Assembly (NCBI GenBank): GCA_009773375.1 | Contig: WRPH01000014.1 | Span: 1-64,000 of the forward strand | DNA length: 64,000 nucleotides | Direction of reading: 5' to 3' | DNA from: Paracoccaceae bacterium | Lineage (GTDB): Bacteria; Pseudomonadota; Alphaproteobacteria; Rhodobacterales; Rhodobacteraceae | Part shown: positions 15,007-37,432 of the stretch, one piece after another | How positions within the stretch are numbered: position 1 is the first letter of the stretch | Layout of the letters: each line of letters starts with the position of its first letter | Notes under the pieces: model-generated | Database searches by the model: none | What the model was told of the DNA's origin: nothing | The model's input: only the letters and a program-made list of their open reading frames with translations | Made by a program: the position numbers and the translations under genes

Positions 15007-15011
15007 GCCCG

Positions 15012-17361: not shown

Positions 17362-17376
17362 CATCAGGAGGGCGGA

Positions 17377-18141: not shown

Positions 18142-18165
18142 AACAATAAAATCAGGGAGTTATCC

Positions 18166-19398: not shown

Positions 19399-19399
19399 G

Positions 19400-19894
19400 A
19401 TGACCGCGCCCATCGACGCCGCCGATTTCCGCACCGCGATGGCGCGCTTTCCGGGGGCTGTGACCATCGTCACAGCCCTGTCGGGAACCGAGCGGCGCGG
19501 CATCACCGCCACCGCCGTCTGTTCCGTCACCGCCGACCCGCCCAGCCTGCTGGTCTGCCTTAACCGCAAGACCGGCACCTGCGCTGCTGTGGCAGAGTCC
19601 GGGCGTTTCGCCGTCAACCTGCTCGCCGACGCCGCCCACCCGATCGCGCTGCGCTTTGCGGGCGTGGGTGGCGTGACCGGCGAGGATAAATTCGCCGCAG
19701 GCAGCTGGGCCACCGATGCCGCTGGCCTGCCGCTTCTGGCCGAGGCGGTGACGTCATTTTCCTGCGAGGTGGCAGAGACCTTGCAGGCCGGCAGTCACAC
19801 CATCTTCATCGGCCAGATCACCGGGCTGGTGCAGAACGCGGGTGCCGCGCTGATTTACGAGCAAAGCCGTTTCCACCGGCTTAGCCCGTTGTAA
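19400..19894 (+). CDS. StyB/IifD-like flavin reductase
   Basis: NAD(P)H:flavin reductase of the HpaC/StyB family, 164 aa, a complete FMN-binding split barrel. Characteristic segments are FRTAMARFPGAVTIVTA, RGITATAVCSVTADPPSLLVCLN and AVNLLAD. It should deliver reduced FAD to the StyA-like oxygenase encoded immediately upstream. Its 3' end overlaps that of the convergent SulP gene by 14 bases. Confidence 0.92.
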   Translation: MTAPIDAADFRTAMARFPGAVTIVTALSGTERRGITATAVCSVTADPPSLLVCLNRKTGTCAAVAESGRFAVNLLADAAHPIALRFAGVGGVTGEDKFAAGSWATDAAGLPLLAEAVTSFSCEVAETLQAGSHTIFIGQITGLVQNAGAALIYEQSRFHRLSPL

Positions 19895-21478: not shown

Positions 21479-22033
21479 CTACCCCCGCCGATGCGTCGCA
21501 GCCACCCGCGCCACCTCTTCATAAATCCCCGACAGCACGTTCAACACCCGCGCCGCCTCTGCCAGCCGCGCCGAGAACCCCGGCAGCCCGGCGATTTCCG
21601 CCAGCAACAACCGCTGCCGCAACACGCCATAGTCATCCGTCACCCGCCGCCCCTCTGCCGTCACCTCATAACTGACCCCCGAGCGGCCCGAGCCCTTGCG
21701 CTCCACCAGCCCCGCCCCGATCAGTTTGCGCAGCGAATACTGAATATTCGGTATATCGTCGCGGTTGGTTAGCCGCGCCAGATCCTTGATGCTTTTCGGC
21801 CGGTCATTCATCCGGATGATATGCAACAGCGCGTTCTCCGGCCCGGTCGCCGCCAGATCGCACACACCCGCCAGACATTCCGACTGCCAGCGCCCGAATC
21901 CCTCAAACGCCCGCATCAGCGCGAATTCCAGCTCGGTCGCCTCCACCTCGACACCGCTTTGCGCCAGATGCCAGCGGTAATCAAAAGCTGACTCCGCCGC
22001 ATCATTTTGAACTTGAACGATTTTCTTGACCAT
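21479..22033 (-). CDS. Winged-helix (MarR-like) regulator
   Basis: A DNA-binding protein of 184 aa. The helix-turn-helix region is KSIKDLARLTNRDDIPNIQYSLRKLIGAGLV, followed by a wing (GRSGVSYEVTAEGRRV). The N-terminal part is longer than in standard MarR proteins. It is divergent from the RutA-like monooxygenase gene, which it may control, and is followed by the SulP transporter. ATG at 22033 chosen; an upstream ATG at 22051 in the same frame is possible. Confidence 0.8.
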   Translation of the reverse strand: MVKKIVQVQNDAAESAFDYRWHLAQSGVEVEATELEFALMRAFEGFGRWQSECLAGVCDLAATGPENALLHIIRMNDRPKSIKDLARLTNRDDIPNIQYSLRKLIGAGLVERKGSGRSGVSYEVTAEGRRVTDDYGVLRQRLLLAEIAGLPGFSARLAEAARVLNVLSGIYEEVARVAATHRRG

Positions 22034-22077
22034 GCCGCGCGCCTCCTGCACCCCGCCACAATCCCCTGCAAAATCCG

Positions 22078-22146: not shown

Positions 22147-23238
22147 ATGACCACCAACCCGATGCTTTCGGGCGACCACTTTCGCTTGGGCACCTTTTCG
22201 TCAAACTGCTCGTCAGGCATGACCCCCACCAAAATCGCCGAGCGTTGGGACAATTCCTGGGACAACAACCTGAAACTGGCCAAGATGCTGGATGACGCGG
22301 GCATCGACTTCATGCTGCCGATCGCCCGCTGGATCGGCTACGGGGGTGAAACCGATTTCCACGGCGGCGTGCTGGAAACCATGACCTGGGCTGCCGGTCT
22401 GCTGGCCTCGACCAAGAATATCGCGGTGTTTGCCACCATCCACACCGCCGCCAACCACCCCGCGGTGATCGCCAAGCAGATCGCCACCATCGACCAGATC
22501 GGCCACGGCCGCGCCGGGCTGAACATCGTCGCGGGCTGGAACAAGCCGGAATACGAAGCGCTTGGCCTGACCCTGCCCGATGATCACGAATCCCGCTACG
22601 CCTATGCGCAGGAATGGTTCGATCTGGTGCGCAAGCTCTGGGCCTCGAACGAGCATTTCGATTGGGATGGCAAATACTTCAAGGCCAAGAAGATCAAGGG
22701 CAACCCGGCCCCGGTGCGCGGCTCGGTGCCGATCATCAACGCCGCAGGCAGCCCGCAGGGCCGCGAATTTGCCACCGACAACGCCAACTTCCTGTTCACC
22801 CCGGCGATTGATCTGGCCCGTTCCAAGGTGGAAATTCAGGAGCTGAAAGCACAGGCGCAGGCCAAGGGCCGCAAGGTCGATGTGCTGACCTTCTCTCACG
22901 TCATCTGCCGCCCGACCCGCGAAGAGGCCGAGGCCTTTGCCAAGCACACCGCCGTCGATAACGCCGATACCGACGCCATCGACAATCTGGTGAACCTGCA
23001 ATTCGCCCATGCCCACAGCTTCCCGCATGACCTGCTGGCGCAGATCAAGCACCTGTTCGCGCTGGGTCACGGTGGCTTCCCGCTGATCGGCACGCCCGAT
23101 GAAGTCGCCGCCGGCATCATCAAGCTGCACGAAACCGGCTTTGCAGGCTCCACCCTGTCCTTCGTCGATTATGTCGCGGAATTCCCCTATTTCCGCGACA
23201 CTGTGCTGCCGAAACTCAAGGCGGCTGGCATCCGCTAA
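22147..23238 (+). CDS. RutA-like LLM-class flavin monooxygenase
   Basis: Bacterial-luciferase-like monooxygenase of 363 aa. Segments such as MLDDAGIDFMLPIARWIGYGG, ATIDQIGHGRAGLNIVAGWNKPEY and INAAGSPQGREFATDNANFLF align by eye with pyrimidine monooxygenase RutA, which opens the uracil ring between N3 and C4. No other rut genes are nearby, so the substrate is probably not uracil. A dedicated flavin reductase follows after a hairpin. In an indole-related neighbourhood a heterocyclic amide such as an oxindole is a possible substrate (inference). Ribosome-binding site GGGAG. Confidence 0.85.
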   Translation: MTTNPMLSGDHFRLGTFSSNCSSGMTPTKIAERWDNSWDNNLKLAKMLDDAGIDFMLPIARWIGYGGETDFHGGVLETMTWAAGLLASTKNIAVFATIHTAANHPAVIAKQIATIDQIGHGRAGLNIVAGWNKPEYEALGLTLPDDHESRYAYAQEWFDLVRKLWASNEHFDWDGKYFKAKKIKGNPAPVRGSVPIINAAGSPQGREFATDNANFLFTPAIDLARSKVEIQELKAQAQAKGRKVDVLTFSHVICRPTREEAEAFAKHTAVDNADTDAIDNLVNLQFAHAHSFPHDLLAQIKHLFALGHGGFPLIGTPDEVAAGIIKLHETGFAGSTLSFVDYVAEFPYFRDTVLPKLKAAGIR

Positions 23239-23273
23239 ACCGCTTTGCCTTCGGGCAAATCCGGCCTAAATCA

Positions 23274-23300
23274 AGCTTCGCCGGACCTTCCGGCGAAGCT
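23274..23300 (+). terminator. Intercistronic 12-bp hairpin
   Basis: AGCTTCGCCGGA (23274-23285) and TCCGGCGAAGCT (23289-23300) form a perfect 12-bp stem with a 3-base loop and no U-tract. It lies between the monooxygenase and its reductase and probably protects the upstream message or attenuates the reductase. A smaller TTTGCC-TTCG-GGCAAA hairpin precedes it. Confidence 0.6.
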
Positions 23301-23315
23301 GCAAAAGGATGCGCC

Positions 23316-23807
23316 ATGACCGAACCCAGCCCGAAAGACTTCCGCGATGCCATGCGTGCCTTTGTCGGCAATTGCAGCCTGATCACCACCGGCAACGGCG
23401 AGGCGGCAACCGGGCTGATCGTCACATCGGCAATCTCGCTTTCCGCCGAGCCGCCGCTTTTGTTGGCCTGCGTCAACCGATCATCGTCCAGCTGGCCAGT
23501 GCTGAAAGAGACCGGCAGCTTCGGTTGGTCGTCCCTCGGGGCCGCACATCAGCCGGTAGCCGAGCGGTTTTCCGGCTTCGGCGGCATCAAAGGCCCCGCC
23601 CGCTATGAAGGGGCCGAATGGGAAACCGCCGTCACCGGCGCAAAACTGCTGGTCGGCGCGCCCACCGCGTTTGACTGCACGGTGGAAGAGATGATCGACC
23701 GCGCCACCCATTCGATCCTGATTGGTCGCGTGCAGGCGATCCGCACCACCCCGGATGCAGGCGCACTGATCTACTGGAACGGCGCCTATCGCAGCCTGAC
23801 CGCGTAA
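23316..23807 (+). CDS. Flavin reductase paired with the RutA-like monooxygenase
   Basis: HpaC/RutF-type NAD(P)H:flavin reductase, 163 aa (FRDAMRAFVGNCSLITTGNG; TGLIVTSAISLSAEPPLLLACVN). It is a distant paralogue of the reductase at 19400-19894. Where the paralogue has AVNLLAD this one has GWSSLGAAHQPVAERF, so the flavin-contact loop differs. Preceded by AAAGGA. It presumably supplies reduced FMN to the LLM monooxygenase in the same transcript. Confidence 0.88.
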   Translation: MTEPSPKDFRDAMRAFVGNCSLITTGNGEAATGLIVTSAISLSAEPPLLLACVNRSSSSWPVLKETGSFGWSSLGAAHQPVAERFSGFGGIKGPARYEGAEWETAVTGAKLLVGAPTAFDCTVEEMIDRATHSILIGRVQAIRTTPDAGALIYWNGAYRSLTA

Positions 23808-24043: not shown

Positions 24044-25570
24044 TCAAGCGAAGCTGCGGATCGTCGCCAAAGCCCCGTCCAGCGCCTTGCCCTCTTCATC
24101 CTTCAACGCCGCCTCACGCAGCCGCCGCGCCCAGTCCGCCGCATCCGGGCGACCCGCCACCAAAGCGACCCCGTCCAGCACCCGATCAAACTTCGACAGC
24201 CCGCGGGCATGGGTGTCAGAATAGCCCTTCACCAGCCGCCGACAGCGGATCACCTCCACCGCCAGATCGTAATTCGCGGGCAGGTATCCCAAAGCCACCG
24301 CCAGCCAGCGCTCCAGATGCGCCACCTCTTGCCGGTGCCGCAACGACCCCAGCCGCCGCCGCTTCATCCCGCCCAGAACATACAGCATCAGATAGGCCCG
24401 CAGACTATCGGTCCGCAGCCGCCGCCCCTTGTTGAACCAGCGATCCAGCCGCGCCATCCAGGTCGGGCTGGCCTCCAGCCTGGCCCCCAGACCCGCAGGC
24501 AACAGCCCGACAATCTCTTCCGCACGCGGATGCAAAAACTCGGTCAGCTGCACCACGTTCCCCGCCTTTGCGCCCATCTCCGCCGCGATCCGCTCGGCTC
24601 GCCCGGCACGGGTTTTCAGATCGGCCACCCGGATCACATCATCATAGGCCATCGCATTGGCGATATATTTCGCCGCCTGCCGCGCCAGTTCAAACGGAGC
24701 CTGATCGCGCGCCAGCACCGCCTCCACCCGGCCCAGATAGGCCGCGCCATAGGTCAGATCCTGAAATTCGACCACCTTGCGCAAACCCAAGCTCGCCATT
24801 TCAGCCACCGGCGCAGGCATCCGCCCGGCACGATCCGTCAAAGCCTGCCATTGCGCCAGCAAAGCAGCCGGCCCGCGCGGGGCCGTATCCGCCGCAACCT
24901 CTGGCGGCTTTTCAGCCACAGCGCCCTGCGCCGCCGCAAACCCTGCCGCAAACGCCCGCAAAGACGCCGCCGCGCCCTTGCCCCCCGACTTGATCGCCGC
25001 TTCAAACGCCTCCCGCGGGAAGGGCAACACCTCGGCCCCGGCCAGCGCGCCAAACAGGCTGGCCGAAATCACCGAGCCCTGCGCCACCGCCAGCGCATCA
25101 AAATCAGCCGCAATAAACCGCCGCGCAGCCACTTCCGCTGCCGCCATCACCTCTTCAGACGAGGCAATGCCATCTCCCGGCACCATCTTTTCCGAAACCG
25201 CCAGCGCTCGATGCGTCGAGGTGATCAGCACCGTGCGATCCGGCGTCACAAAGCCGCGCATGATCGAGCGGCCCGCCTCCATCATCTCGGCGGTGATCAT
25301 GATATCCACGTCCCCCGCCGCCGGCATCAGCGAGAACACTGGCACCTTCGCGCCGGCCGGAGCCATTTCCACATAGTAAACCGTCGCCCCGGTCCGCTGC
25401 GCCACGCCCGCCACGCTGGTCGCCTGACAGACATAGCCGTTCGCCCGCGCCACCGCCTCGATCCAGCCGGTCAGCACGCCGCCGCCTTGCCCACCGACCG
25501 CTAGAAGCGCCAGCTTGATCACGCCGTCCATACCTTTGGCCGCCATCGGAATTGCCTGATGTTGCGTCAT
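24044..25570 (-). CDS. iorB: Indolepyruvate oxidoreductase subunit beta (IorB) with C-terminal extension
   Basis: Gamma-domain subunit of a 2-oxoacid:acceptor oxidoreductase, 508 aa. The N-terminal 190 residues are the catalytic gamma domain (LALLAVGGQGGGVLTGWIEAVA; TSVAGVAQRTGATVYYVEM). The remainder is a helical extension of the DUF6537 type seen in aerobic proteobacterial IorB proteins. With IorA it converts an aryl-2-oxoacid plus CoA into the aryl-acyl-CoA, CO2 and two electrons. Start and IorA stop overlap (ATGA). Last gene of the operon beginning with the cyclase-family hydrolase. Confidence 0.9.
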   Translation of the reverse strand: MTQHQAIPMAAKGMDGVIKLALLAVGGQGGGVLTGWIEAVARANGYVCQATSVAGVAQRTGATVYYVEMAPAGAKVPVFSLMPAAGDVDIMITAEMMEAGRSIMRGFVTPDRTVLITSTHRALAVSEKMVPGDGIASSEEVMAAAEVAARRFIAADFDALAVAQGSVISASLFGALAGAEVLPFPREAFEAAIKSGGKGAAASLRAFAAGFAAAQGAVAEKPPEVAADTAPRGPAALLAQWQALTDRAGRMPAPVAEMASLGLRKVVEFQDLTYGAAYLGRVEAVLARDQAPFELARQAAKYIANAMAYDDVIRVADLKTRAGRAERIAAEMGAKAGNVVQLTEFLHPRAEEIVGLLPAGLGARLEASPTWMARLDRWFNKGRRLRTDSLRAYLMLYVLGGMKRRRLGSLRHRQEVAHLERWLAVALGYLPANYDLAVEVIRCRRLVKGYSDTHARGLSKFDRVLDGVALVAGRPDAADWARRLREAALKDEEGKALDGALATIRSFA

Positions 25571-27711
25571 TGTGCGCCTCCGAAAACCAGTCTCTTGCCG
25601 TCTCGCCGCCGTTGCAGCCAGCCGATCACCCGCGCCCGGAACGCCGCCAACCGGGCCTCCCAGGCCGAGGGGTTATGCACCACATCCGCGCGGTAGAACG
25701 ACGGGCACAGCACCGCCGCATCGGCAACCTCGCCGCAGTTGCCGCAGCCGACGCAGGATTGGTCAATGCTCGCCACCGGATCATCGCGCAGCGGATCATC
25801 CAGCCTTTTCAACGACAAAGACGGGCAGCCCGACAGCCGGATACAGGCGTGGTCGCCGGTGCAGACCGCCTCATCAATGCCAAAACGCGGGGCTTCAATC
25901 CGCCGGCCTTCCTTGATCGCCGCCGCCCGCAACGGCTTTTCCCGCCGTTGCTTGTTCAGCATACATTCCGACGAAGCCACGATCACCTTCGGCCCCGGCG
26001 CGTCGGTCGTCAGCGCCTCGCGGATGGTGTCACGCATCTTTTTCACATCATAGGTGCGGTCAATCTGGCGCACCCATTCTATGCCGATCCCGTTCAACGC
26101 CTTGGAAATCGGGTTCTTCGTCGCCTTCGTCGCATTGTCGGCGCGGCTCGACATCACGTCCTGCCCGCCAGTCGCCGCCGAGTAATAGTTGTCAACGATG
26201 ATCGCCACGCCGTCGGACTTGTTGAACGCCATATTGGTAAACGACGAGCTCAAACCGTTATGCCAGAACCCGCCGTCACCGATGATCGCCACTGGCCGCC
26301 GCTCGCCACCACCATCAAACGCCGCATTCGCCGCAGGGCCAAGGCCATAGCCCATGGTCGCGCCGCCAATTTCAAACGGCGGCAGGCTGGCGAACAGATG
26401 GCAGCCGATATCCGCCGCGATCTGGTGCTTGCCGAGTTCCTTTTCCACCAGCTTCATCGCGGCAAAGATCGGCCGCTCGGGGCAGCCGGTGCAGAAGCCC
26501 GGCGGTCGGATCGGCACGGTTTTTGACAGGTCCGGAATCGCAGGCCGGTCCATGTTCGGCGCACGCACCACCGCTGCAAGCATTGCCGGGGCTGCGGTTT
26601 TCAGGAAGCCCGTCACCGCATCCAGCATCACCTGCCCGGTATATTCCCCGGCCTGCGGGAACAGCCCCTTGCCGTGCAATTTCACCGCAGATTGGGCGCG
26701 ATACAGAAACGATCCCAGTTGCGTTTCGATAAACTCCGGCTGGCCTTCCTCGATCACCAGCACATGATCCTTGCCCGCGCAGAATTCCAGAAACTCGCCG
26801 GAAATCAACGGGTAGGTCACGTTCAGTACATAGATCGGCACATCGCTGGCACCGTAAATATCCGCCAGCCCCAGCCGTTGCAGCGCTCGGATCAGGCCGT
26901 TATACATGCCACCCTGCACCACGATGCCGAAATCCGCCTGCGGCCCGAGCACCTCGTTCAGCTTGCGCTCGCGGATGAATTTCTCGGCGGCTGGCCAGCG
27001 GTTTTTTACCTTGTCCTGTTCATGCGCGAAAGACATCGGCGGCAAAACCACCCGCGCGAAATCGCTGCGGGGGTTGGAAAGCGCATCCCGCACCGACAGC
27101 TTCGGCTTCTGATTGTCGCGAGTCTGGAAACTGCCAGTGACATGGCACGACCGGATTCGCACCATCAACATCACCGGGGTATTGCTGACTTCCGACAGCT
27201 CGAACCCATCTGACACCGCCTGCACAATCGACGGCAGGTTCGGACGCGGATCCAGCAGCCAGAATTGCGATTTCATCGCAAAGGCATGCGTGCGCTCCTG
27301 CATGATGCTGGAACCCTCGCCGTAATCCTCGCCAACGATCACCAGCGCGCCACCCGTCACCCCCGACGAGGCAAGGTTCGCCAGCGCATCCGAGGCCACG
27401 TTCACCCCAACCGACCCCTTGAACGTCACCGCCCCCCGGATCGGATAATGCACTGAAGCCGCCAGCATTGCCGCCGCCGCCGCCTCGTTGGCATTCGCCT
27501 CAAACCGCACGCCCAACTCGCCCAGCAGGTCTTGCGCGTCGGCCAGCACATCCATCAGATGCGAAATCGGCGCGCCCTGATAGCCACCGACATAACCGAC
27601 GCCGTTTTCCAACAGCGCCTTGGTCAGCGCCAGAATCCCCTCGCCGGTAAAGGTTTCGCCTGCGCCCAAACGCAGGTCTTCGACTTCGGCCTTGAAGGAA
27701 CGCTCTGCCAT
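25567..27711 (-). CDS. iorA: Indolepyruvate oxidoreductase subunit alpha (IorA)
   Basis: TPP-dependent alpha subunit of 714 aa. A pyrimidine-binding domain comes first. The GFCTGCPERPIF motif and the TPP signature (GDGGFWHNGLSSSFTNMAFN followed by an NYY segment) lie in the middle. Two [4Fe-4S] clusters are near the C-terminus: CTGDHACIRLSGCP at about residue 617 and CVGCGNC...LCP at about 652. The family decarboxylates arylpyruvates to aryl-acetyl-CoA. The operon neighbour resembles isatin hydrolase, whose product isatinate is also an aryl-2-oxoacid; decarboxylation would give 2-aminobenzoyl-CoA. Begins directly after the MarR stop codon. Confidence 0.92.
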   Translation of the reverse strand: MAERSFKAEVEDLRLGAGETFTGEGILALTKALLENGVGYVGGYQGAPISHLMDVLADAQDLLGELGVRFEANANEAAAAAMLAASVHYPIRGAVTFKGSVGVNVASDALANLASSGVTGGALVIVGEDYGEGSSIMQERTHAFAMKSQFWLLDPRPNLPSIVQAVSDGFELSEVSNTPVMLMVRIRSCHVTGSFQTRDNQKPKLSVRDALSNPRSDFARVVLPPMSFAHEQDKVKNRWPAAEKFIRERKLNEVLGPQADFGIVVQGGMYNGLIRALQRLGLADIYGASDVPIYVLNVTYPLISGEFLEFCAGKDHVLVIEEGQPEFIETQLGSFLYRAQSAVKLHGKGLFPQAGEYTGQVMLDAVTGFLKTAAPAMLAAVVRAPNMDRPAIPDLSKTVPIRPPGFCTGCPERPIFAAMKLVEKELGKHQIAADIGCHLFASLPPFEIGGATMGYGLGPAANAAFDGGGERRPVAIIGDGGFWHNGLSSSFTNMAFNKSDGVAIIVDNYYSAATGGQDVMSSRADNATKATKNPISKALNGIGIEWVRQIDRTYDVKKMRDTIREALTTDAPGPKVIVASSECMLNKQRREKPLRAAAIKEGRRIEAPRFGIDEAVCTGDHACIRLSGCPSLSLKRLDDPLRDDPVASIDQSCVGCGNCGEVADAAVLCPSFYRADVVHNPSAWEARLAAFRARVIGWLQRRRDGKRLVFGGAQ

Positions 27712-28179
27712 CTAGATCTCGTGCTTTCTGATATTTGTCAGCATTTTCTGTAGGGTAGCCACAAAGGCCGCACGCTCGGCTTCGGGAATGCCGCGAAACA
27801 TCCGCGCCTGCGCCTGCGCCATATGCGGCCACAATGTTTCAAACGCGGTGCGCCCCGCATCGGTGATGAACACACGCACCGCGCGGCTGTCGGCGCTATC
27901 CGCCTCGCGCCGCACCAGCCCGTCGGCGTTCAACTGCTCCAGCGCGCGGCTCAGCGTCGATTGTTCCACCACCGTATAGACCGCGAGTTCGCGGATCAGC
28001 GGCCCTTCGACCACCGACAGCACCGCCAGCGCCCGCATTTTCGGCGTGGTCAGGCCCAGATCGGCCATTTCTTCGCGCAAGGACGCGTTGTAACGCCCCA
28101 TGATGCGGTTCATCAGATAGGGCGCGAAATTGGTTAACCCGATCTCGCCCAATCGCGCCGAGGGTGGTTGATCTTTCAT
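27712..28179 (-). CDS. MarR-family regulator of the ior operon
   Basis: A protein of 155 aa. It has an N-terminal dimerisation helix (LTNFAPYLMNRIMGRYNASL), a helix-turn-helix (LIRELAVYTVVEQSTLSRALEQL) and a wing with the MarR DSRAVRVFITDAG motif. It is encoded inside the cyclase-FAD-marR-iorA-iorB operon, with ATGA overlap to the FAD gene, so it is likely an autorepressor responding to the pathway substrate. Candidate operators are the overlapping palindromes at 30598-30613 upstream of the operon. Confidence 0.88.
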   Translation of the reverse strand: MKDQPPSARLGEIGLTNFAPYLMNRIMGRYNASLREEMADLGLTTPKMRALAVLSVVEGPLIRELAVYTVVEQSTLSRALEQLNADGLVRREADSADSRAVRVFITDAGRTAFETLWPHMAQAQARMFRGIPEAERAAFVATLQKMLTNIRKHEI

Positions 28180-29747
28180 GCCCCCAGCCTCTTCGCTGCG
28201 TTGAAGCCCGAGCCGCCGCCAAGCCCCGGCCCCGGATGTGTCGAGGCACCGATATGGATCAGCCCGCGCACCGCGCCGGTGCCATTGGTCGAATGCGCAA
28301 ACGGTCGCCAGATGAAAAACTGATCCACGCTGCACGCCCCGCCATAGGGATCGCCGCCGACCAGATTGACGTTCATCCGCTCCAGATCAGCCGGAGAATA
28401 GGCCTTCCGCGCCAGCTTGATCTTGTCGAAATCCTTGATATGGCGCGCTAAAATCGCCTCCAGCCGATCGGCAAACGCCTCGCGCGCTGTGTCCCAGTCA
28501 CGCGCCTCAATCTCACCCGCCGCATCGCCCTTGATCACGCGCGGCGCGTCCGGGATTTGCAGCCACAAGATCGCCTTGCCGTCCGGGCAGCGGCTCGGAT
28601 CCAGCCGGTGCGGCTGGCCGACGCAGATCGTGGGCACCGCAGGCAGCATGCCGCGCTCGGCCTCATTGGCGGATTTCGACACCGAATCAATGCCATCCGC
28701 AAGGTGGATCAGCGCCACATCCTCCAGCCCGGCCGTTAACCATTCAGGGTGGCGGTCCAGCGCATAATGCAGTTGGAAATCGCCGCGACCATGGCGGAAC
28801 TGGCGTTCCGCCGCCCGATCTTCCGGCAGATTCACCTCCAGCAACCGGCCATAAAGCTGTCCCGGAGCAACGCTGGCCAGCACCGACCGACTGCCGATCT
28901 CCTCGCCCCCCACAAGCCGCACGCCCGTCACCCGACCATCCTTAACCATGATCCGGTCGACATCCGCGCCGGTGCGGATCACGCCACCTTTTTCTTCGAT
29001 CAGCCCGCGAAACGCCTGTGCCGCCACGCCTGCGCCGCCCTTGGAAATCGGCGCGCCCGCCGCCTCCAACGCGAAGGCAATCACCTTGCCCATCTGCGCC
29101 GAATAGGCAGATTCGGGCGTCAAGCCACAATGCAGCACCCAAGGTGCCCACAACGCCTGCACCAGCGGGCTGTGATAATTGCTGTCCAACCATCCCCGCG
29201 CCGGGGCCAAAGCGCTGCCCATCCACGCCGCAAGCCCGCGCAAACCGCGTTTCCGCACCTGCCCGAACAGCAGTTTCGCCGTGGGCCAGGACCACAGATC
29301 GCCGCCCAGAAGCGCAAACAAAAACGGCGCATCCGCACCGATTCCGCCGACATCCAGCGCATGCCTATCCCCATCGCCCGCCGACAAGGCATTGAAGTTA
29401 CTTACATTTTTCGCCTGATCCATCGTCAGAACCAGCGAAGTCCCATCCGGCCGCAACACGGCGGTCGGATGGGCGGTGTGGCAATATTCAAAGCCATGCC
29501 GCGCCAGATGCGGCGCCAAGGCCGCTCCGGCGGGAGAGGTCATGAACAGCACAAACGTCGCCGCCATCACATCATGCTGAAACCCCGGCAGGGTGATTTC
29601 ATCGCTGCGCAAGCAACCGCCGATGCGATCCTCACGCTCCAGAACCAGAACTTTGTCGCCTTTCAGCGCCAACAGGCTGGCAGCCACCAGCCCGTTGATC
29701 CCCGAGCCGATGATGATGTGCCCAAATGTGTCAGGACTGGCGGCCAT
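28176..29747 (-). CDS. Phytoene-desaturase-like FAD oxidoreductase
   Basis: NAD(P)/FAD-dependent amine-oxidase/phytoene-dehydrogenase superfamily protein, 523 aa. An N-terminal dinucleotide motif (HIIIGSGINGLVAASLLALKG) leads into LEREDRIGGCLRSDE, and the C-terminal FAD segment is HIGASTHPGPGLGGGSGFNA. The C-terminus HPGPGLGG is typical of the non-carotenoid branch found in catabolic loci. No carotenoid genes are near. It is paralogous to the interrupted gene at 30640-32205 on the other side of the cyclase gene. A dehydrogenation in the indole/isatin route, for example dioxindole to isatin, is an untested possibility. Confidence 0.85.
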   Translation of the reverse strand: MAASPDTFGHIIIGSGINGLVAASLLALKGDKVLVLEREDRIGGCLRSDEITLPGFQHDVMAATFVLFMTSPAGAALAPHLARHGFEYCHTAHPTAVLRPDGTSLVLTMDQAKNVSNFNALSAGDGDRHALDVGGIGADAPFLFALLGGDLWSWPTAKLLFGQVRKRGLRGLAAWMGSALAPARGWLDSNYHSPLVQALWAPWVLHCGLTPESAYSAQMGKVIAFALEAAGAPISKGGAGVAAQAFRGLIEEKGGVIRTGADVDRIMVKDGRVTGVRLVGGEEIGSRSVLASVAPGQLYGRLLEVNLPEDRAAERQFRHGRGDFQLHYALDRHPEWLTAGLEDVALIHLADGIDSVSKSANEAERGMLPAVPTICVGQPHRLDPSRCPDGKAILWLQIPDAPRVIKGDAAGEIEARDWDTAREAFADRLEAILARHIKDFDKIKLARKAYSPADLERMNVNLVGGDPYGGACSVDQFFIWRPFAHSTNGTGAVRGLIHIGASTHPGPGLGGGSGFNAAKRLGA

Positions 29748-29750
29748 TGG

Positions 29751-30539
29751 TTAACGCGCCACCAGCGCCAGCGCCCGGATGGGCGAGCCTGTGCCGTGTT
29801 CGATCTTCAACGGTGCCGCAATCAGGATCGCGCCTTTTGCCGGCAACCGATCCAGATTGGCAAGGCTGGCCAGACCGTAGCAGTTGTTCTTGTGCAGCAG
29901 ATTATGCGCCGGGAACGGCGGCGTCATGCCCCCGGCCTGCCCCGCATCGGTGCCGATGCACTGGCTGCCCCAGCCGACAATTCCCTTTGAGATCAGATAC
30001 TCGATGACTTCTGCGGTCGGCCCCGGCGTGTGCGGTCCGGTTTCATTGGCATTCAGAAAAAGGTTTTCATCATGGCTGCGCTTGTCCCAGTCAGACCGCA
30101 AGACCACCCACTCGCCCGCGCCGATGTTGCCGTGCTTGGCCTCCCACGCCTTGACGTGATCAATGGTCAGCAGGAAATCCGGGTCCGCTGCGCACTCTGC
30201 TGCGAAGTCCAGAACGTTAACGGGGGCCACCAGCCGCTGCACCGGCAGCGTGTCAGTATAGCCGTCGGCGTAATCCTTGCCGGTGATCCAGTGGTGCGGT
30301 GCGTCGAAATGCGTGCCGGAATGTTCGCCGACCTTCAGCCAGTTCCACGCCCAGAACGGGCCATCAGCGTCGTATTCGGAGATCCGGTGAATCTCGATCT
30401 TGGGCGTATCCTTGGCGAAGTCCGGCGGCAATTTCAACAAGGGCGTGTTCGGCCCCAGAACGCCGGTGCAATCAACCACTTCAACCCCGCCCGACGCGAG
30501 CATTCCAGCCAGACCGGCCAGCACAGTTGCGGAACTCAT
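29751..30539 (-). CDS. Cyclase-family metal hydrolase, isatin-hydrolase-like
   Basis: A protein of 262 aa with the metal-binding signature HSGTHFDAPHHW at residues 73-84 (HxGTHxDxPxH), diagnostic of the cyclase/kynurenine formamidase/isatin hydrolase family. The length is close to that recalled for isatin hydrolase (about 260) and longer than KynB kynurenine formamidase (about 210). Residues near GWGSQCIGTDAGQAGG complete the active site. Isatin hydrolase is a manganese enzyme that opens isatin to isatinate. Downstream IorAB could then act on isatinate. First gene of the operon, with a GGGAG ribosome-binding site. Kynurenine formamidase remains the alternative. Confidence 0.82.
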   Translation of the reverse strand: MSSATVLAGLAGMLASGGVEVVDCTGVLGPNTPLLKLPPDFAKDTPKIEIHRISEYDADGPFWAWNWLKVGEHSGTHFDAPHHWITGKDYADGYTDTLPVQRLVAPVNVLDFAAECAADPDFLLTIDHVKAWEAKHGNIGAGEWVVLRSDWDKRSHDENLFLNANETGPHTPGPTAEVIEYLISKGIVGWGSQCIGTDAGQAGGMTPPFPAHNLLHKNNCYGLASLANLDRLPAKGAILIAAPLKIEHGTGSPIRALALVAR

Positions 30540-30597: not shown

Positions 30598-30613
30598 AAA
30601 TGCATTTGCAAAT
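30598..30613. promoter_or_regulatory. Overlapping palindromes in a divergent promoter region
   Basis: AAATGCATTT (30598-30607) and ATTTGCAAAT (30604-30613) are both perfect palindromes and overlap by four bases. On the minus strand TTGCAA followed after 17 bases by TAGTCT could be the cyclase-operon promoter, with the palindrome covering its -35. A related ATGCACTTGCAT lies inside the following gene near 31090. Candidate site for the MarR protein encoded at 27712. Confidence 0.45.
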
Positions 30614-30639
30614 ATCCCGACGTCACTCGGAGTCAAGAA

Positions 30640-32205
30640 ATGTCCGAAACCTACGACGCCGTCTTTATCGGCGCTGGCCACAACACCCTTGCATGCGCCC
30701 TGCATCTTGCGGCGCGCGGCTGGAAGGTTGGCTTGTTCGAACAGGCTGCCGTTGCAGGCGGGGCCGTGAAATCCGGGGCCTATACCCTGCCGGGCTTTCG
30801 CCACGATTAGGCGGCGATGAACCTGTCTTTGTTCGCCGGATCGGCGTTTATGAAGACGCATGGCGCTGAGTTGGCCAAACACGGGCTGGATTTTGCGCCG
30901 GTCTCGAACCCGTTCGCCTCGGTCTTTCCAGATGGCAGCTGGTGCGGCGTGTCCACCGACACCGCCGCCACAACCGCCCGGATCGCCCAGCTTTCGGCCG
31001 CCGATGCCGCCACCTGGACCAGGCTGACCGCAGGCTTCAACGCCGAAGCGCCGCATCTGTTCGGCCTGCTGGGCACCAAGATGAAATTACATGCACTTGC
31101 ATATTTCATGCTCAAAACACTGCGTGGCAAGGGTCTGTCTGGCACGCTGGACATGACGCGTTTCCTGCTGCAATCGCCGCGGCAATGGCTGACCCAGACC
31201 TTCACCTCTCCCAAGGTGCAGGCGATGCTGGCGGCCTGGGGCATGCACCTCGATTTCGCCCCTGATACCGCAGGCGGCGCGCTGTTTCCCTATCTGGAGG
31301 GGATGGCGGGCCAGGCCTTTGGCATGGTGCTGGGCAAAGGTGGCGCCGATACCATCATCCGCGCTCTGACCGGTGCCATCGAGGCTCGTGGTGGCAAAAT
31401 CGAATGCAGCCAAACCGTCAGCCGCATCCTGCATCAGCATGGCAAAGCCAGCGGCATCGAGCTGGCCGATGGTCGCAAGATCACTGCCACCCGCGCCGTC
31501 ATCGCCGGGGTCGCGCCGGGTGCGCTGCCAAAGCTCACCGGCACGCAGAGCAATTTCGATGCCAAAATGGCCGGCTTTACGCATGCCCCCGGCACGATGA
31601 TGATCCATCTGGCGCTGTCTGGCCTGCCGGACTGGTCCGCCGGTAACGATCTGCAATCATTCGCTTATATCCACATTGCCCCCAGCCTTGACCAGATGGC
31701 GCGCACCTATCAGCAAGCCCTTGCCGGTCTGTTGCCGGATGAGCCGATCCTTGTCGTGGGTCAGCCGACAACCGTGGACCCTTCGCGCGCACCTGACGGC
31801 CAGCACACGATCTGGTTGCAAGTCCGCATGGCCCCCGGCACGATCCAAGGCGATGCAAAGGGCGAAATCGCCGCCACCGATTGGGCCGAGGCAGCCGCGC
31901 CCTTTGCCCAACGCGCGCTGGATATTCTGGACCGCTACGCACCCGGAACCCAAGCCAAAATCCTATGCAAACGCATCGTGCCGCCGACCGAACTGGAGCA
32001 AGACAACCCCAATCTGGTGGGTGGAGATCAGGTTTGCGGCTCGCATCACCTGAGCCAGAACTTCTTGTTCCGCCCGGCGCGTGGCCATGCGGACGGCTCT
32101 ACCCCGATGCAGAATCTGCACCTGACCGGGGCCAGCGTTTGGCCCGGCGCGGGGCTTGGTGCCGGATCAGGCTTTCTTCTCGCCCAAAAACTGACCGGGA
32201 AATAA
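30640..32205 (+). pseudogene. Phytoene-desaturase-like FAD oxidoreductase interrupted by TAG
   Basis: An otherwise intact gene of 522 codons (paralogue of 28176-29747). It starts at ATG 30640 (MSETYDAVFIGAGHNTLACA, GGAG upstream) and reads through PGFRHD into an in-frame TAG at 30808-30810, then resumes in the same frame with AAMNLSLFAGSAF and continues to a normal C-terminus (LTGASVWPGAGLGAGSGF). The stop falls 56 codons in, right after the FAD-binding motif, so no active protein is expected unless the stop is read through. A single TGG-to-TAG change would explain it. An internal ATG at 30817 would make a form lacking the dinucleotide-binding fold. Frame and codon bias are otherwise unspoiled, implying recent damage or a base-calling error. 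Confidence 0.85.
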
Positions 32206-32238: not shown

Positions 32239-33759
32239 ATGAAACTGAACAGACGTGCGCTTTTGCAACTTTCCGCCGCTGGCGTGTCACTGGCCGCTTT
32301 CGGCCTTCCCGCCCGCGCGCAAGCGATTGACGAGCTGGTCATCGCCTACAACGTGAACCTGCCCGCGTGGGATCCCACCACTGGCCCGTCGGCTGTCAAC
32401 CCGACGATTCAGGGGCTTTATCAAGCGGTGTTCGACCAATACATCCTGCAACAACCCGATCTGAAACCCGCCCCCGGCCTGCTGACCGAATGGGGTTGGA
32501 ACGATGACCGCACCCAGGTCTGGATGACCGTGCGCGAGGGTGTCACCTGGCATGATGGCAGCCCGTTCACCGCCGAAGACGTGGCGTGGAGCCTTGCCCG
32601 CGTTGCCGATCCGGCCACCGGCAGCCCGATTCAGTTTGTCTGGGGCACCCTGCAAAATCATCGGGTTGAGGGCAACAAGGTGATTGCCGACGTCAAGCAA
32701 TTCGACCCCACGATCTTCAAATGGATGTATTTCCTGACCGGCTATGTGCTGCCGAAGGCCTATTTCGAAAAGGTCGGGGCTGAAGGCTTTGAAGCGGCGC
32801 CCATCGGCACCGGCCCGTATATGGTTGAAAAGTTTGAAAGAAACGCTTTCGTGCGACTGAAGGCGAACGCCAACTACTGGGGCGGCAAGCCTGATTTTGA
32901 TACTGTGACGATCAAATTCGTCACCGACGCCGCCGCGCGCGTTGCCGAAATCGAATCCGGCAACGCCCATGTCACGCTGGAAATTCCCTACGAGGAATAC
33001 GACCGCCTGAAAGCAACCCTGACCGGCACCGCAGCGCCGGTTTCCGATATCGGTATGATTTTCCTCAATGATATTGAGGTGATGACCGACCCGAACGTGC
33101 GCAAGGCAGCCGCCTATGCGATTGACAAGCAGACCATCATCGACCGGCTGCTGTCGGGCTATGGCGTGCCGATCGACACGCTGGAGACGCCGCAGTACGA
33201 CGCCTATGATGCTGGCATCAAGGTTGGCTACAACCCGGAAAAGGCTGTCGAACTGCTGGCCGCATCCGGCTATAGCGTTGATAATCCTGTTAAATTCAAG
33301 ATCCAGACCACCAAGGGTTTCAAGCCCAAGGATTACGAGATGGTGCAAGCCATCGTCGGGCTGTGGCGCAAGGTCGGCATCGAGGCGGAAATTGAGGTCT
33401 ATGAGATCGCCAAGCACTACGAGTTGCGCGCAGCCGATCAGTTGGCCCCGGCCGCCTTCTACAACTGGGGTAACTCGGTGGGCGACCCGACCACCTCGAC
33501 CGGCTTTGCGATGTATGGTCCCTCGCCGCACTCGGTCTGGGATGGCCAGGATGTGATCGACATGATCAACCCGCTGTGGGGCGAACCGGATGAAGCCAAG
33601 CGCATCGACGGCTGGAAGAAGGTCGATGCCCATATCGCTGAAAACGCGCTGGTGATCCCGCTGCTGCAATACGTCCAGCCGATCCTGTCGGCACCGGGGG
33701 TCGTGGTGACGCCGCACGCCTCGGGCGCGCTGCTGCCGCAACTGATGAAGCGGGCCTGA
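32239..33759 (+). CDS. Dpp/Opp-type ABC transporter substrate-binding protein
   Basis: Periplasmic binding protein of the SBP_bac_5 family, 506 aa. The N-terminus MKLNRRALLQLSAAGVSLAAFGLPARAQA has a twin-arginine and a cleavage site after AQA, so Tat export is possible. The mature protein shows typical family segments: EGVTWHDGSPFTAEDVAWSL and IGTGPYMVEKFERNAFVRL. Family members bind peptides, nickel, glutathione or opines. It starts 33 bases after the interrupted FAD gene and heads a five-gene transporter operon. Genomic company suggests an aromatic or amide ligand rather than generic peptides, but the sequence alone does not say. Confidence 0.93.
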   Translation: MKLNRRALLQLSAAGVSLAAFGLPARAQAIDELVIAYNVNLPAWDPTTGPSAVNPTIQGLYQAVFDQYILQQPDLKPAPGLLTEWGWNDDRTQVWMTVREGVTWHDGSPFTAEDVAWSLARVADPATGSPIQFVWGTLQNHRVEGNKVIADVKQFDPTIFKWMYFLTGYVLPKAYFEKVGAEGFEAAPIGTGPYMVEKFERNAFVRLKANANYWGGKPDFDTVTIKFVTDAAARVAEIESGNAHVTLEIPYEEYDRLKATLTGTAAPVSDIGMIFLNDIEVMTDPNVRKAAAYAIDKQTIIDRLLSGYGVPIDTLETPQYDAYDAGIKVGYNPEKAVELLAASGYSVDNPVKFKIQTTKGFKPKDYEMVQAIVGLWRKVGIEAEIEVYEIAKHYELRAADQLAPAAFYNWGNSVGDPTTSTGFAMYGPSPHSVWDGQDVIDMINPLWGEPDEAKRIDGWKKVDAHIAENALVIPLLQYVQPILSAPGVVVTPHASGALLPQLMKRA

Positions 33760-33769
33760 TCGCCAGCAA

Positions 33770-33820
33770 GGCGGGGGGCTTCGCGCCCCCCAAGGCACAT
33801 TGGCTTGCTGCCAATGTGCC
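33770..33820 (+). terminator. Tandem hairpins between binding-protein and permease genes
   Basis: A GGGGGG/CCCCCC hairpin (about 33773-33791) is followed by GGCACATTGGC (33794-33804) pairing with GCCAATGTGCC (33810-33820) in a perfect 11-bp stem. No U-run. Such structures after a binding-protein gene usually stabilise that message so it exceeds the permeases. An ATATTT-type element follows (33821-33850). Confidence 0.65.
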
Positions 33821-33903
33821 CCCCCTGCGGAGTATTTTTGCCAAAGTGAATGCGAGGACCGAAGCGCGCCTTCGATCCTGACGTTGAAGGAGTGTTCCCG
33901 CCG

Positions 33904-34914
33904 ATGCAGTTGCTTCAATCGGTTCTGACCCGATTATTCACCACGCTGATCACCCTGATCGGCGTGGCGGTCATCGTGTTCTTTGTCATCCGTGTAGTGC
34001 CCGGCACCCCCATCGCCATGATGCTACCACCGGGGGCGACCGAAGATGACGTGGCGCGCCTGACCGCACTTTACGGGCTGGACAAATCCATTCCGCAGCA
34101 ATTTCTGATCTGGCTGTCGGGCACCCTGCACGGCGATTTCGGCACCTCGATCACCACGCGGCAGCCGGTGCTGGCGCTGGTGCTGTCGCGGCTGCCCGCG
34201 ACGCTTGAATTGTCAATCATGGCGCTGGTCATTGCCACCGCCATCGGCGGCTTCATGGCGCTGACAGGCACCCGCCTGCGCGGCACCAAGACCGAGGCCG
34301 CCATCGACATTTCCAACGGCATGGCGCTTTCCGTCCCCGATTTTCTGTGGGGCCTGATCCTGATCCTGGGCTTCGGCGTGCTGATCCCGATCTTTCACAT
34401 TTCTGGCCGCATCAGCCCATCGCTTGACCTGCCTTTCACCAGCAATTTTTACCTGTTCGAATCCGTGCTGCGCCTGCGCTTTGATCTTTGGGCCGATATC
34501 GTCGCCCATATGTTCATGCCTGCCCTTGCCCTTGCGATTCCGCTGGCTGCCATTATCGGCCAACTTCTTAAACAATCGCTTAAGGAAACCATGCATTTGG
34601 ATTACGTCACCCTCGCCCGTACCAAAGGCTACGGCGAGAACCATGTGATCCTGCATGAGGCGTTGCCCAACGCCATCTTGCCCACCCTCACCCTTGTCGG
34701 CGTGCAGTTCACCTTCCTGATCGGCGGCACCGTGATCATCGAGCGGCTGTTTTCCTATGAAGGCCTTGGCAACATGGCGATTGATGCCGTGATCAACCGC
34801 GATCTGCCGCTGATTCAGGGCATCGTGATCCTGTTTGCGGTGATCTTCACCGCCGTCAACCTGCTGGTAGACCTCTGTTATGCCGCCCTGAACCCGAGGC
34901 TTCGCCATGCTTGA
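33904..34914 (+). CDS. Dpp/Opp-type ABC permease (DppB-like)
   Basis: Inner-membrane permease of 336 aa with about six transmembrane helices, starting with LLQSVLTRLFTTLITLIGVAVIVFFVIRVVPG. The EAA loop that contacts the ATPases is in the segment LARTKGYGENHVILHEALPNAILP. GDFGTSITTRQPV is a hallmark of the DppB group. AAGGAG lies 11 bases before the ATG at 33904. It forms the translocation pore with the next gene, which it overlaps by 8 bases. Confidence 0.94.
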   Translation: MQLLQSVLTRLFTTLITLIGVAVIVFFVIRVVPGTPIAMMLPPGATEDDVARLTALYGLDKSIPQQFLIWLSGTLHGDFGTSITTRQPVLALVLSRLPATLELSIMALVIATAIGGFMALTGTRLRGTKTEAAIDISNGMALSVPDFLWGLILILGFGVLIPIFHISGRISPSLDLPFTSNFYLFESVLRLRFDLWADIVAHMFMPALALAIPLAAIIGQLLKQSLKETMHLDYVTLARTKGYGENHVILHEALPNAILPTLTLVGVQFTFLIGGTVIIERLFSYEGLGNMAIDAVINRDLPLIQGIVILFAVIFTAVNLLVDLCYAALNPRLRHA

Positions 34915-35758
34915 CGGCCGATCACAAATCAAACGCAAACTGCCGCCGCGGCTGATCCTGTCAGCCGGCTGGCTGATCTTGCTGGGCGCAGCCGCCATGC
35001 TGGCACCTTGGATTGCACCGAAAGACCCGCTGGCGCAGGATCTTTTCCTTGGCCAACTGCCCCCCGCTTGGGTGCAGGGGCACGAGCCGGGCTACCTGCT
35101 GGGCACCGATTCCCTAGGCCGCGACGTGCTGTCGCGCATCCTTTACGGCACCCGCCTTGCGCTGACCGTCGCCCTGCTCGCCGGGTCGATCACCTGCATC
35201 ATTGGCGCGACGCTTGGCTTGCTGGCCGGATTCCTGCGCGGCTGGGTAGACATTATGATCAGCCGCGCCATTGATATCTGGATGGCCTTCCCGCCGGTGC
35301 TGTTCTCGATCCTGCTGATCGCCGTGCTTGGCCCCGGCCTGACTTCGATCATCATTGCCATCGTCGTGATCGATTGGACCCGCTTTGCCCGCGTGATCCG
35401 CGCCGAGGCGATGACCCAAGGTGCGATGGATTACGTTGCCTCCGCGCAAGTTGCCGGTCGTACCCGACTTTCCACAATGTTCACCGAAATCCTGCCGAAC
35501 GTGCTGCCCACCATCACCGTGCTGCTGACGTTGGAAATGGGCATCGCCATCATTGTCGAGGCGATCCTGTCCTTCGTCAACCTGTCGATTTCCACCGATG
35601 ACCCCACCTGGGGTGGCATGATCGCGGAAGGCCGCACCTCTATCCACCAAGCCTGGTGGGTGCTGGTGTTTCCGCTGATCACCCTGTTTCTCACCGTCCT
35701 CAGTTTTTCGCAATTGGGCGAAGGGCTTAAAGACCGCTTCGATCCGGTGCTGCGATGA
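34907..35758 (+). CDS. Dpp/Opp-type ABC permease (DppC-like)
   Basis: Second permease, 283 aa. The N-terminal helix LILSAGWLILLGAAAMLAPW is followed by the periplasmic segment YLLGTDSLGRDVLSRILYGTR, diagnostic of DppC/OppC. The EAA loop is in AEAMTQGAMDYVASAQVAGR. It overlaps the first permease by 8 bases and the first ATPase by 4, so all are probably translated together. Confidence 0.94.
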   Translation: MLDGRSQIKRKLPPRLILSAGWLILLGAAAMLAPWIAPKDPLAQDLFLGQLPPAWVQGHEPGYLLGTDSLGRDVLSRILYGTRLALTVALLAGSITCIIGATLGLLAGFLRGWVDIMISRAIDIWMAFPPVLFSILLIAVLGPGLTSIIIAIVVIDWTRFARVIRAEAMTQGAMDYVASAQVAGRTRLSTMFTEILPNVLPTITVLLTLEMGIAIIVEAILSFVNLSISTDDPTWGGMIAEGRTSIHQAWWVLVFPLITLFLTVLSFSQLGEGLKDRFDPVLR

Positions 35759-36624: not shown

Positions 36625-37432
36625 ATCCTACGCCCCAAACCTTTACCAAATTGATAACTTGCGGCTGTCTTTGGCCGACATGACGAAAAAGCCGCTGGTT
36701 GGCGCGGCACCCCGGCTGGAAATCCTGAAGGGCCTCAGCTTTACCATCCCAAAAGGTGAGATTTTGGGCATCGTCGGCGGCTCTGGCTCGGGCAAATCCA
36801 CGCTTGGGCGCGCGCTGGTGCGGCTGCTTGAACCCTCGGGCGGTAGCATCAAATTCGACGGCAAAGACATCACCCACCTGCCCGAAACCGACCTGCACCC
36901 ACTGCGCCGCCGCTTCCAGATGATCTTTCAAGACCCGATGAGCAGCCTGAACCCGCGCCACCGCGTCGGTGCCATCATCGCAGCCCCGCTGTCGTTGCAC
37001 GGGCTGTCGAACCCGCGCCAACGCGCGCTGGAGGCCCTCGATCACGTCGGCCTGCCGCGCGGTTTCGCCACCCGCTACCCGCATGAACTCTCAGGCGGTC
37101 AGCGCCAGCGCATCGGCATCGCCCGCGCCATCGCGCTGAAGCCCGATTTCATTCTGGCCGATGAAATCGTCTCTGGCCTTGATGTCTCAAGTCAGGCGCA
37201 AGTTCTCAACCTATTGGAAACGCTGGTCAAAGACCTTGGACTGACACTGGCCTTCATCAGCCACGACCTGTCGGTGATCCGCCGCCTCTGCACCCGTATC
37301 CTCGTGCTGCACCGCGGCGAGATCGTCGAAAACGCCGCCACGCCCGCGCTTTTCGCCAATCCGCAGGCCAGCTATACCCGCGATCTGCTGGACGCCATTC
37401 CGCTGCCCGACCCCAAGCAGGTCTGGGCCTGA
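36617..37432 (+). CDS. Dpp/Opp-type ABC ATPase (DppF-like)
   Basis: Second nucleotide-binding subunit, 271 aa: Walker [16 protein letters not shown]-loop region [16 protein letters not shown], signature [16 protein letters not shown] and Walker [15 protein letters not shown] (usual ADEPVSALD replaced by ADEIVSGLD). ATG at 36617 has CAGGAG upstream and overlaps the DppD-like gene by 8 bases. Its last 176 bases are antisense to the run-on 3' end of the convergent FucU-like gene. Confidence 0.94.

Follow-up and report, generated by a model that had tools for sequence, protein, structure and literature searches.

A 64,000-nucleotide stretch of DNA from a Paracoccaceae bacterium (contig WRPH01000014.1, hereafter the window; the source assembly, GCA_009773375.1, comprises 3.71 Mb in 71 contigs) carries on its minus strand, from position 30539 to 24044, five co-directional open reading frames (ORFs) that abut or overlap. 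These encode an isatin hydrolase of the cyclase family (IsaH), a flavin adenine dinucleotide (FAD) oxidoreductase (FAD1), a MarR-family regulator, and IorA and IorB, the subunits of a proposed isatinate:acceptor oxidoreductase (Table 1). This five-gene operon had been proposed in a first-pass annotation of the DNA and is borne out by the ORFs and by domain and profile matches. The nearest named IorA, among the matches listed, is that of Cypionkella aquatica (95% identity). The gene order hydrolase-(FAD)-MarR-IorA-IorB is repeated in many relatives, and the independently annotated 92 kb plasmid NZ_CP081112.1 of Sulfitobacter mediterraneus carries an ATP-binding cassette (ABC) transporter, two FAD oxidoreductases, a cyclase, MarR, IorA and IorB. 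Because the arrangement recurs in this manner, the operon is not attributable to chance. Four features in Table 1 were absent from the first-pass annotation: the ligase, the indole oxidation set, the kynureninase-like gene and the FAD gene that diverges from isaH.

Table 1. Features of the window, with the basis for each assignment.
Feature	Position	Strand	Basis
IsaH, isatin hydrolase (cyclase family, isatin hydrolase B type)	29751-30539	-	PDB 4j0n match and published signatures
FAD1, CrtO/phytoene-desaturase-like superfamily	28176-29747	-	Pfam NAD_binding_8
MarR-family regulator	27712-28179	-	Pfam MarR_2; start at 28179 picked manually, longest ORF extends to 28335
IorA, thiamine pyrophosphate (TPP) and Fe-S subunit of proposed isatinate:acceptor oxidoreductase (CoA-acylating)	25567-27711	-	TIGR03336 match below cutoff; motifs
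IorB, with DUF6537	24044-25570	-	NF006179; POR and DUF6537 domains
2-Aminobenzoyl-CoA monooxygenase/reductase (ABMR)	10735-13017	-	NF006101, 1259 bits (cutoff 1078)
Short-chain dehydrogenase/reductase (SDR) of ABM operon	9968-10801	-	Travels with ABMR; start picked manually
MarR-like regulator of ABM operon	9540-10010	-	Travels with ABMR; start picked manually
Enoyl-CoA hydratase family protein of ABM operon	8734-9543	-	Named by inspection
Acyl-CoA dehydrogenase family protein of ABM operon	7531-8667	-	Named by inspection
AMP-forming aryl-CoA ligase (benzoate-CoA ligase family), probable 2-aminobenzoate-CoA ligase	5104-6726	-	TIGR02262
Enoyl-CoA hydratase and 3-hydroxyacyl-CoA dehydrogenase family genes	13112-15006	+	Named by inspection
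Kynureninase-like pyridoxal phosphate (PLP) enzyme	15003-16136	+	Aminotran_5 and KYNU_C; PDB 1qz9 (kynureninase), E 3e-19
Indole oxidation set: SDR (IifB-like by position), indole monooxygenase, flavin reductase	17356-19894	+	PDB 7z4x; Pfam
FAD oxidoreductase 2 (FAD2), divergent from isaH	30640-32205	+	In-frame TAG at 30808-30810 in this assembly
Palindrome-containing site, candidate MarR operator	30600-30614	+	Between isaH and fad2; sole exact match in window
Dipeptide-type ABC transporter (substrate-binding protein, two permeases, two ATPases)	32239-37432	+	ORFs; conserved neighbour

IsaH is very probably an isatin hydrolase that hydrolyses isatin. The protein aligns without gaps to isatin hydrolase B (IHB; PDB 4j0n) over residues 1-261 of both chains (E 6e-149, 498 bits, compared with a self score of 612 bits), and its next PDB matches are the isatin hydrolases of Ralstonia and of the Labrenzia A type. 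According to the accessible text of PMC6117287, isatin hydrolases are marked by the sequence HxG[T/A]HxDxPxH, an aromatic WxW/FxW pocket and GLAS/GLQC, with Trp84 and Phe209 (IHB numbering) as further pocket positions; operon partners of these enzymes are not discussed in that text. IsaH carries the metal motif HSGTHFDAPHH from residue 73 (H73, H77 and D79), the pocket residues W63, W65, W84 and F209, and GLAS at 222-225, and the motif HSGTHFDAPHHW named in the first-pass annotation is found in the protein. Sequence, metal motif, aromatic pocket and GLAS are common to IsaH and the IHA and IHB enzymes of Labrenzia aggregata and Ralstonia solanacearum (PDB 4j0n, 5nnb and 5nmp), although Labrenzia IHB has Phe63 where IsaH has tryptophan. 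Identity as a kynurenine formamidase (KynB), which the first-pass annotation had named as a refuting case, was rejected on the basis of the 4j0n match and a score of 30.4 bits against TIGR03035 (cutoff 223). A long open frame containing isaH in one related locus (L104) was also rejected as a fusion, being a spurious frame.

Members of the 2-oxoacid:acceptor oxidoreductase superfamily convert a 2-oxoacid (R-CO-COO-) to R-CO-SCoA and CO2, and are marked by the TPP motif GDG-x(n)-N and by Fe-S cysteines. In IorA, the TPP motif extends from GDG at 478-480 to N508, the second Fe-S motif is complete (CxxCxxCx9CP; Cys 653, 656, 659 and 669), and the TPP-motif and cysteine residues are invariant in two 18-member alignments. 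IorB matches NF006179 (PRK08312) with 666 bits, well past the cutoff of 348. The subunit families, the TPP motif and the second Fe-S motif are shared with indolepyruvate/aryl 2-oxoacid:ferredoxin oxidoreductases, from which the window proteins differ in that IorA misses the IOR_alpha cutoff, the beta subunit carries DUF6537, and the proposed substrate is 2-aminophenylglyoxylate (isatinate). By analogy with the superfamily chemistry, IorAB may convert isatinate to 2-aminobenzoyl-CoA. An AlphaFold model of IorA (predicted local distance difference test score, pLDDT, of 58; predicted template modelling score of 0.35) was set aside and not used.

The monooxygenase/reductase that the first-pass annotation had placed elsewhere in the window is confirmed by its profile score, with both halves matched (VioD-like, residues 1-358; old yellow enzyme type, residues 392-732). 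The NCBI name of family NF006101 is salicylyl-CoA 5-hydroxylase/oxidoreductase, and we take a match to it to denote ABMR. The aerobic 2-aminobenzoyl-CoA pathway was described in Azoarcus evansii. In the window, the ligase lies downstream of ABMR on the same strand and scores slightly under the TIGR02262 cutoff (361 versus 375 bits); in many genomes it resides near ABMR on the same contig. As outlined in the accessible part of a review (PMC6221969), the aerobic pathway consists of ligase and ABMR, both of which, together with the accessory operon, are also present in the window. What we propose beyond this pathway is an ATP-independent entry through isatinate, and because the genome retains the ligase, this route would be an additional, second entry here.

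The first-pass annotation had suggested examining the co-occurrence of these genes across genomes. In a sample of 196 genomes of the order (limits of E<=1e-40 for isaH and IorB and E<=1e-100 for ABMR), isaH is present in 33, IorB in 39 and ABMR in 88. All 33 isaH genomes hold IorB (Fisher p 1e-31) and each of them also gives a match to ABMR (p 6e-14), which in G002 reaches just 48% identity; neither p value is corrected for kinship. The distance between isaH and IorB is at most 6 kb in 24 of the 33 genomes, at most 10 kb in 26 and at most 20 kb in 30, and in 9 of the 35 inspected order genomes that hold both ABMR and IorB, these two are no more than 12 kb apart. Six order genomes have IorB and no isaH, namely G008, G052 and G142 (distant IorB), G020 (a fragment), G089 and G184. 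Among 318 genomes of the class (isaH limit E 1e-50), isaH was found in 11, two of which are shared with the order sample; the other nine all hold IorB (five only at 36-40% identity, two at 41-43%), and eight hold ABMR, the exception being G380. Furthermore, we examined the best 80 of 585 IorA loci found in named genomes, a scope that applies to all counts of IorA loci given here. These loci include isaH (at least 45% identity) in 56 cases, a MarR3 homologue in 60, FAD1 in 38, ABMR in 14 and the ligase in 3, and each of the five ABC transporter genes accompanies IorA in 32-35. All 14 genomes whose IorA locus holds ABMR also have isaH. Comparative genomics links IsaH, IorAB and ABMR far beyond expectation.

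We conclude that the operon probably encodes a lower isatin pathway that runs through IsaH and IorAB to the ABM operon and bypasses free anthranilate. IsaH would open isatin to isatinate, and IorAB would use TPP and Fe-S chemistry to carry out the oxidative decarboxylation of isatinate with CoA, releasing CO2, reducing an electron carrier and yielding 2-aminobenzoyl-CoA. This thioester would then be dearomatised and degraded by ABMR and the other products of its operon, such that both free anthranilate and the ATP cost of activating it are avoided. Homology establishes isatin hydrolysis as the predicted first step, and we infer the IorAB reaction, what the FAD enzymes do, and that dioxindole is oxidised to isatin. 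The same interpretation was reached by inference in the first-pass annotation, and it is supported by the tests that sequence data allowed.

If the product of IorAB is 2-aminobenzoyl-CoA, loss of the anthranilate ligase should be tolerated in genomes that carry isaH and IorAB. This expectation was evaluated in genomes that are at least 90% complete and have an ABMR match covering both halves, with a limit of E<=1e-100 for a ligase orthologue. Three of 40 isaH-positive genomes (G084, G157 and G395) lack a ligase orthologue, compared with none of 84 isaH-negative genomes (p 0.03, uncorrected for kinship). The totals, counted by eye from listings before the Fisher test was run on them, comprise 33 order and 7 class genomes with isaH, and 47 order and 37 class genomes without it; eight of the 55 isaH-negative ABMR genomes of the order were left out. 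Outside the order sample, 16 of 60 ABMR-positive class genomes were excluded as less than 90% complete or with a partial ABMR match (G202, G219, G258, G298, G307, G371, G386, G389, G403, G419, G447, G466, G484, G486, G492 and G505). Among these, the isaH-positive G486 and the isaH-negative G219, G307, G386, G484 and G505 have no ligase at this limit, although the ABMR match of G307 covers the reductase half only and G484 holds a ligase fragment. The filter considered completeness alone and left contamination unfiltered (7% in G350).

Two of the three ligase-free genomes, G084 and G157, carry a run of abmR-SDR-...-MarR together with isaH-(FAD)-MarR-iorA-iorB, whereas the isaH-negative genomes G158 and G168, whose ABMR is equally distant (63-64%), keep the ligase near ABMR on the same contig. 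The third, G395, belongs to another family and combines iad-like Rieske genes, isaH-iorA-iorB and a ligase-less ABM operon in one 20 kb stretch. On one side of isaH-iorA-iorB, this stretch encodes an AMP-ligase (25% identity to the ABM ligase) along with a thiolase, an SDR, MarR and both Rieske subunits (alpha and beta); on the other come a RidA-family gene and then abmR-SDR-MarR followed by the enoyl-CoA hydratase and acyl-CoA dehydrogenase genes. RidA-family (Ribonuc_L-PSP) genes appear in ABM/IorAB loci at L167:11336-11731 and L171:11025-11438, and their products might possibly hydrolyse an enamine after ABMR. Fourteen named genomes have ABMR near IorAB; the ligase is present at 56% identity or more in ten, and the best match is at most 40% identical in four, which are Pacificibacter maritimus (G157), Pacificibacter marinus, a Rhodospirillales metagenome-assembled genome with iad-like genes, and Agrobacterium a22-2. 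Some more distant AMP-ligase is present in every genome searched. Given this and the small number of cases, we judge the ligase test to be supportive and not decisive. The ligase bypass proposed in the first-pass annotation thus gains support from the three ligase-free genomes, whereas the window's own genome speaks against it by retaining the gene.

Several other observations weigh against our proposal, as do some of the published data on auxin degradation considered further below. IorA scores 272.9 bits against TIGR03336 (the IOR_alpha equivalog), far under the cutoff of 650.9; its first Fe-S motif has three cysteines (617, 623 and 629); and sequence searches returned no PDB relative of IorA, or of IorB. 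The ligase is retained in 37 of the 40 isaH-positive genomes, including that of the window, and in Agrobacterium a22-2 another AMP-ligase adjoins the ABMR-like gene, which weakens this strain as a clean ligase-free case. The shared history of related genomes means that the Fisher values overstate independence. G089 has IorB and ABMR 0.5 kb apart and keeps the ligase, yet gives no match to isaH. IorB occurs in 38 of 61 class genomes searched, only 9 of which have isaH, and its relatives, mostly 29-50% identical, are thus also seen in ABMR genomes that lack isaH (29 of the 52 other genomes searched); a distant IorB alone is therefore no marker of isatin use. Likewise, 24 of the 80 IorA loci (three of them on stretches shorter than 7 kb) lack isaH, with iad-like Rieske genes in 4 and neither gene type in 20.

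An alternative explanation, which we consider unlikely, is that IorAB serves as a general arylpyruvate/indolepyruvate oxidoreductase, and that a different enzyme, or chemistry proceeding via 2-aminobenzaldehyde, turns isatinate into free anthranilate, which the ligase then activates. This would agree with the family name of IorAB, with the presence of the ligase in 78 of the 80 ABMR-bearing order genomes that were examined, with IorB relatives in many isaH-free genomes, and with the formation of anthranilate by Variovorax without iadAB (accessible text of PMC12633357). However, isaH without IorB was encountered in none of 42 isaH genomes, and genomes that combine isaH, IorAB and ABMR without a ligase orthologue do exist.

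The published iad loci for auxin degradation bear on both explanations. According to the accessible text of Conway 2022 (PMC9613470), iorB/iadB and iotA/iadA are exclusive markers of iad-type auxin loci, and isatin, isatinic acid and anthranilic acid were detected in cultures of wild-type Variovorax. A build-up of isatinic acid is thus not unique to strains lacking iadAB. In the accessible text of a 2025 preprint (PMC12633357), supplying iadC-K2 but not iadAB to the Variovorax deletion strain HS33 brings anthranilic acid back, which makes iadAB dispensable for anthranilate formation in Variovorax. Both results count among the points against our proposal. HS33 lacks genes 77-53, a region that includes iadA (gene 72) and iadC (gene 70) and presumably, by gene order, iadB (gene 71), which would hence also be deleted. 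The preprint describes strong accumulation of C8H7NO3 and C7H7NO only in strains overexpressing iadC-K2, and its authors interpret these compounds as intermediates toward anthranilic acid. The formulas are those of isatinate and 2-aminobenzaldehyde, respectively. Our own reading, and not that of the authors, is that isatinate may accumulate in HS33 with iadC-K2 for want of an isatinate-consuming IadAB, and the described strains fit this.

The iad loci of Variovorax and Bradyrhizobium, as presented in the accessible text of these two sources, have IorA/IorB (IadA/IadB), MarR regulators and an isatin intermediate in common with the window module; a further parallel is IadI, which carries a kynurenine formamidase annotation and whose place in the pathway is after C8H7NO2. 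They differ in that the published end product is anthranilic acid, with no role stated for IadAB in the accessible text of PMC9613470 or PMC12633357. A search of the available text of PMC12633357 gave no match for the names iadA or iadB. When the window was searched with IadD/E-like proteins from L167, no IadD/E-like Rieske genes were found, and in the openly accessible literature we found no report of the conversion of isatinate to 2-aminobenzoyl-CoA by IorAB.

It is also conceivable, though distinctly improbable in our view, that IorAB makes 2-aminobenzoyl-CoA only for a thioesterase to free anthranilate and the ligase to re-activate it, so that no ATP is saved. The G157 and G084 loci contain 4HBT thioesterases, and anthranilate was detected in degraders of indole-3-acetic acid (IAA) according to the accessible text of PMC9613470 and PMC12633357, but these two genomes lack a ligase orthologue and the thioesterases may work later or recycle CoA. 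Finally, it is highly improbable that the aromatic pathways of IsaH and IorAB are unrelated and that co-transfer alone placed the two on one island: although isaH occurs on 57 plasmid records, with the whole module on at least one, and 20 of the 80 IorA loci have neither isaH nor iad-like Rieske genes, gene order and direction are constant in several families, the co-occurrence holds in 33 of 33 genomes, and the module has been joined independently to iad-like, indole and PLP genes.

If the operon indeed encodes a lower isatin pathway, its isatin could in this genome originate from indole, oxidised by the monooxygenase/SDR set, and possibly also from an amino acid derived from tryptophan, on which the kynureninase-like PLP enzyme would act; certain other genomes could obtain it from IAA by way of iad-like enzymes. 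The PLP gene is the stronger pointer to the isatin source. It ends a short operon (13112-16136) whose second gene overlaps it by 4 bases. Kynureninase 1qz9 is its best PDB match by both sequence and fold, although the protein scores only 79 bits against TIGR01814 (kynureninase; cutoff 246). Its AlphaFold model (pLDDT 75) has a class-V aminotransferase fold, for which kynureninase is narrowly ahead of cysteine desulfurases. A kynU-like gene is present in 20 of the 196 order genomes, 19 of which are isaH-positive (p 1e-16), and a PLP class V gene is also found on the Sulfitobacter plasmid, beyond the replication genes.

In five genomes (L174-L178), the PLP homologue and a second isatin hydrolase form a single in-frame ORF of 688-706 codons; we found no report of such a kynureninase-isatin hydrolase fusion in the openly accessible literature. 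Three fusion loci contain a peptide-type ABC transporter and an M20-type peptidase (by Pfam in L175, by resemblance in L177 and L178), and the other two contain a cytochrome P450, a ferredoxin and a glutamine-synthetase-like gene (by Pfam in L174, by resemblance in L176). In L174, the P450, the glutamine-synthetase-like gene and a 2Fe-2S ferredoxin lie upstream of the fusion, at 4157-7059. Among the stand-alone PLP copies, one directly follows dppF (L179) and four are located, by inspection, beside amino-acid-type ABC genes (L183, L185, L186 and L187); the remaining copies are farther away or on another contig.

These findings lead us to suggest, tentatively, that the module may, in addition to its use for indole and auxin, be a catabolic route for oxidised tryptophan, in which the PLP enzyme would cleave dioxindolylalanine (3-hydroxy-2-oxindolyl-alanine) by a retro-aldol reaction to L-alanine and isatin. 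The isatin would be passed to the hydrolase and then, through IorAB, to 2-aminobenzoyl-CoA without ATP, and ABC transporters for amino acids or peptides would supply the substrate, together with the M20-type peptidase where three of the fusion loci encode it. The accessible text of PMC13397446 reports that PLP aminotransferases couple L-alanine to isatin, which corresponds to the reverse direction. This report, the co-occurrence of kynU-like genes with isaH, the fusions and the transporter company provide the support for such a route.

For the indole monooxygenase (18166-19398), the closest solved structure is 7z4x (E 5e-188), which we take to be the Variovorax enzyme VpIndA1, and the SDR and reductase were assigned by Pfam. 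The set could produce 3-hydroxyindolin-2-one, which an FAD enzyme may oxidise to isatin. Because the indole set is present in only 2 of the 80 IorA loci (L086 and L088), it is not the core source of isatin. An indole flavin monooxygenase, a reductase and an SDR are also common to the Iif system of Acinetobacter, but in the accessible descriptions of that system IifA forms anthranilate from 3-hydroxyindolin-2-one without isatin, unlike the route proposed here. FAD1 scores 138 bits against the NCBIfam CrtO model (cutoff 1000), is 37% identical to FAD2, and perhaps takes part in the formation of isatin. The FAD2 frame is intact in most of the relatives shown, and its in-frame TAG in the window reflects either a pseudogene or an assembly error.

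Of the remaining neighbours, the ABC transporter is also annotated on the Sulfitobacter plasmid. A palindrome resembling the candidate operator is visible in some relatives, and its exact core lies upstream of isaH or fad2 in 15 of 79 isaH loci. With so few loci carrying the core, and with three-mismatch sites elsewhere at chance level, the palindrome was rejected as proof of a shared regulon. A luciferase-like flavin monooxygenase with a flavin reductase (22147-23807) and a MarR-like gene (21479-22051) also reside in the window, and such genes are conserved beside IorB in a few close relatives (L075, L077 and L088).

If our proposal is correct, an isatinate:acceptor oxidoreductase would tie the degradation of indole, auxin and possibly oxidised tryptophan to the 2-aminobenzoyl-CoA pathway, with no free anthranilate formed, no ATP spent and electrons conserved. 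It would supply a step for isatinate and a role for IorAB (IadAB), whose genes mark auxin-degrading loci, and would offer an alternative reading of the metabolite accumulation published for Variovorax. It would also propose a testable function for the fusion protein that joins a kynureninase-like enzyme to isatin hydrolase.

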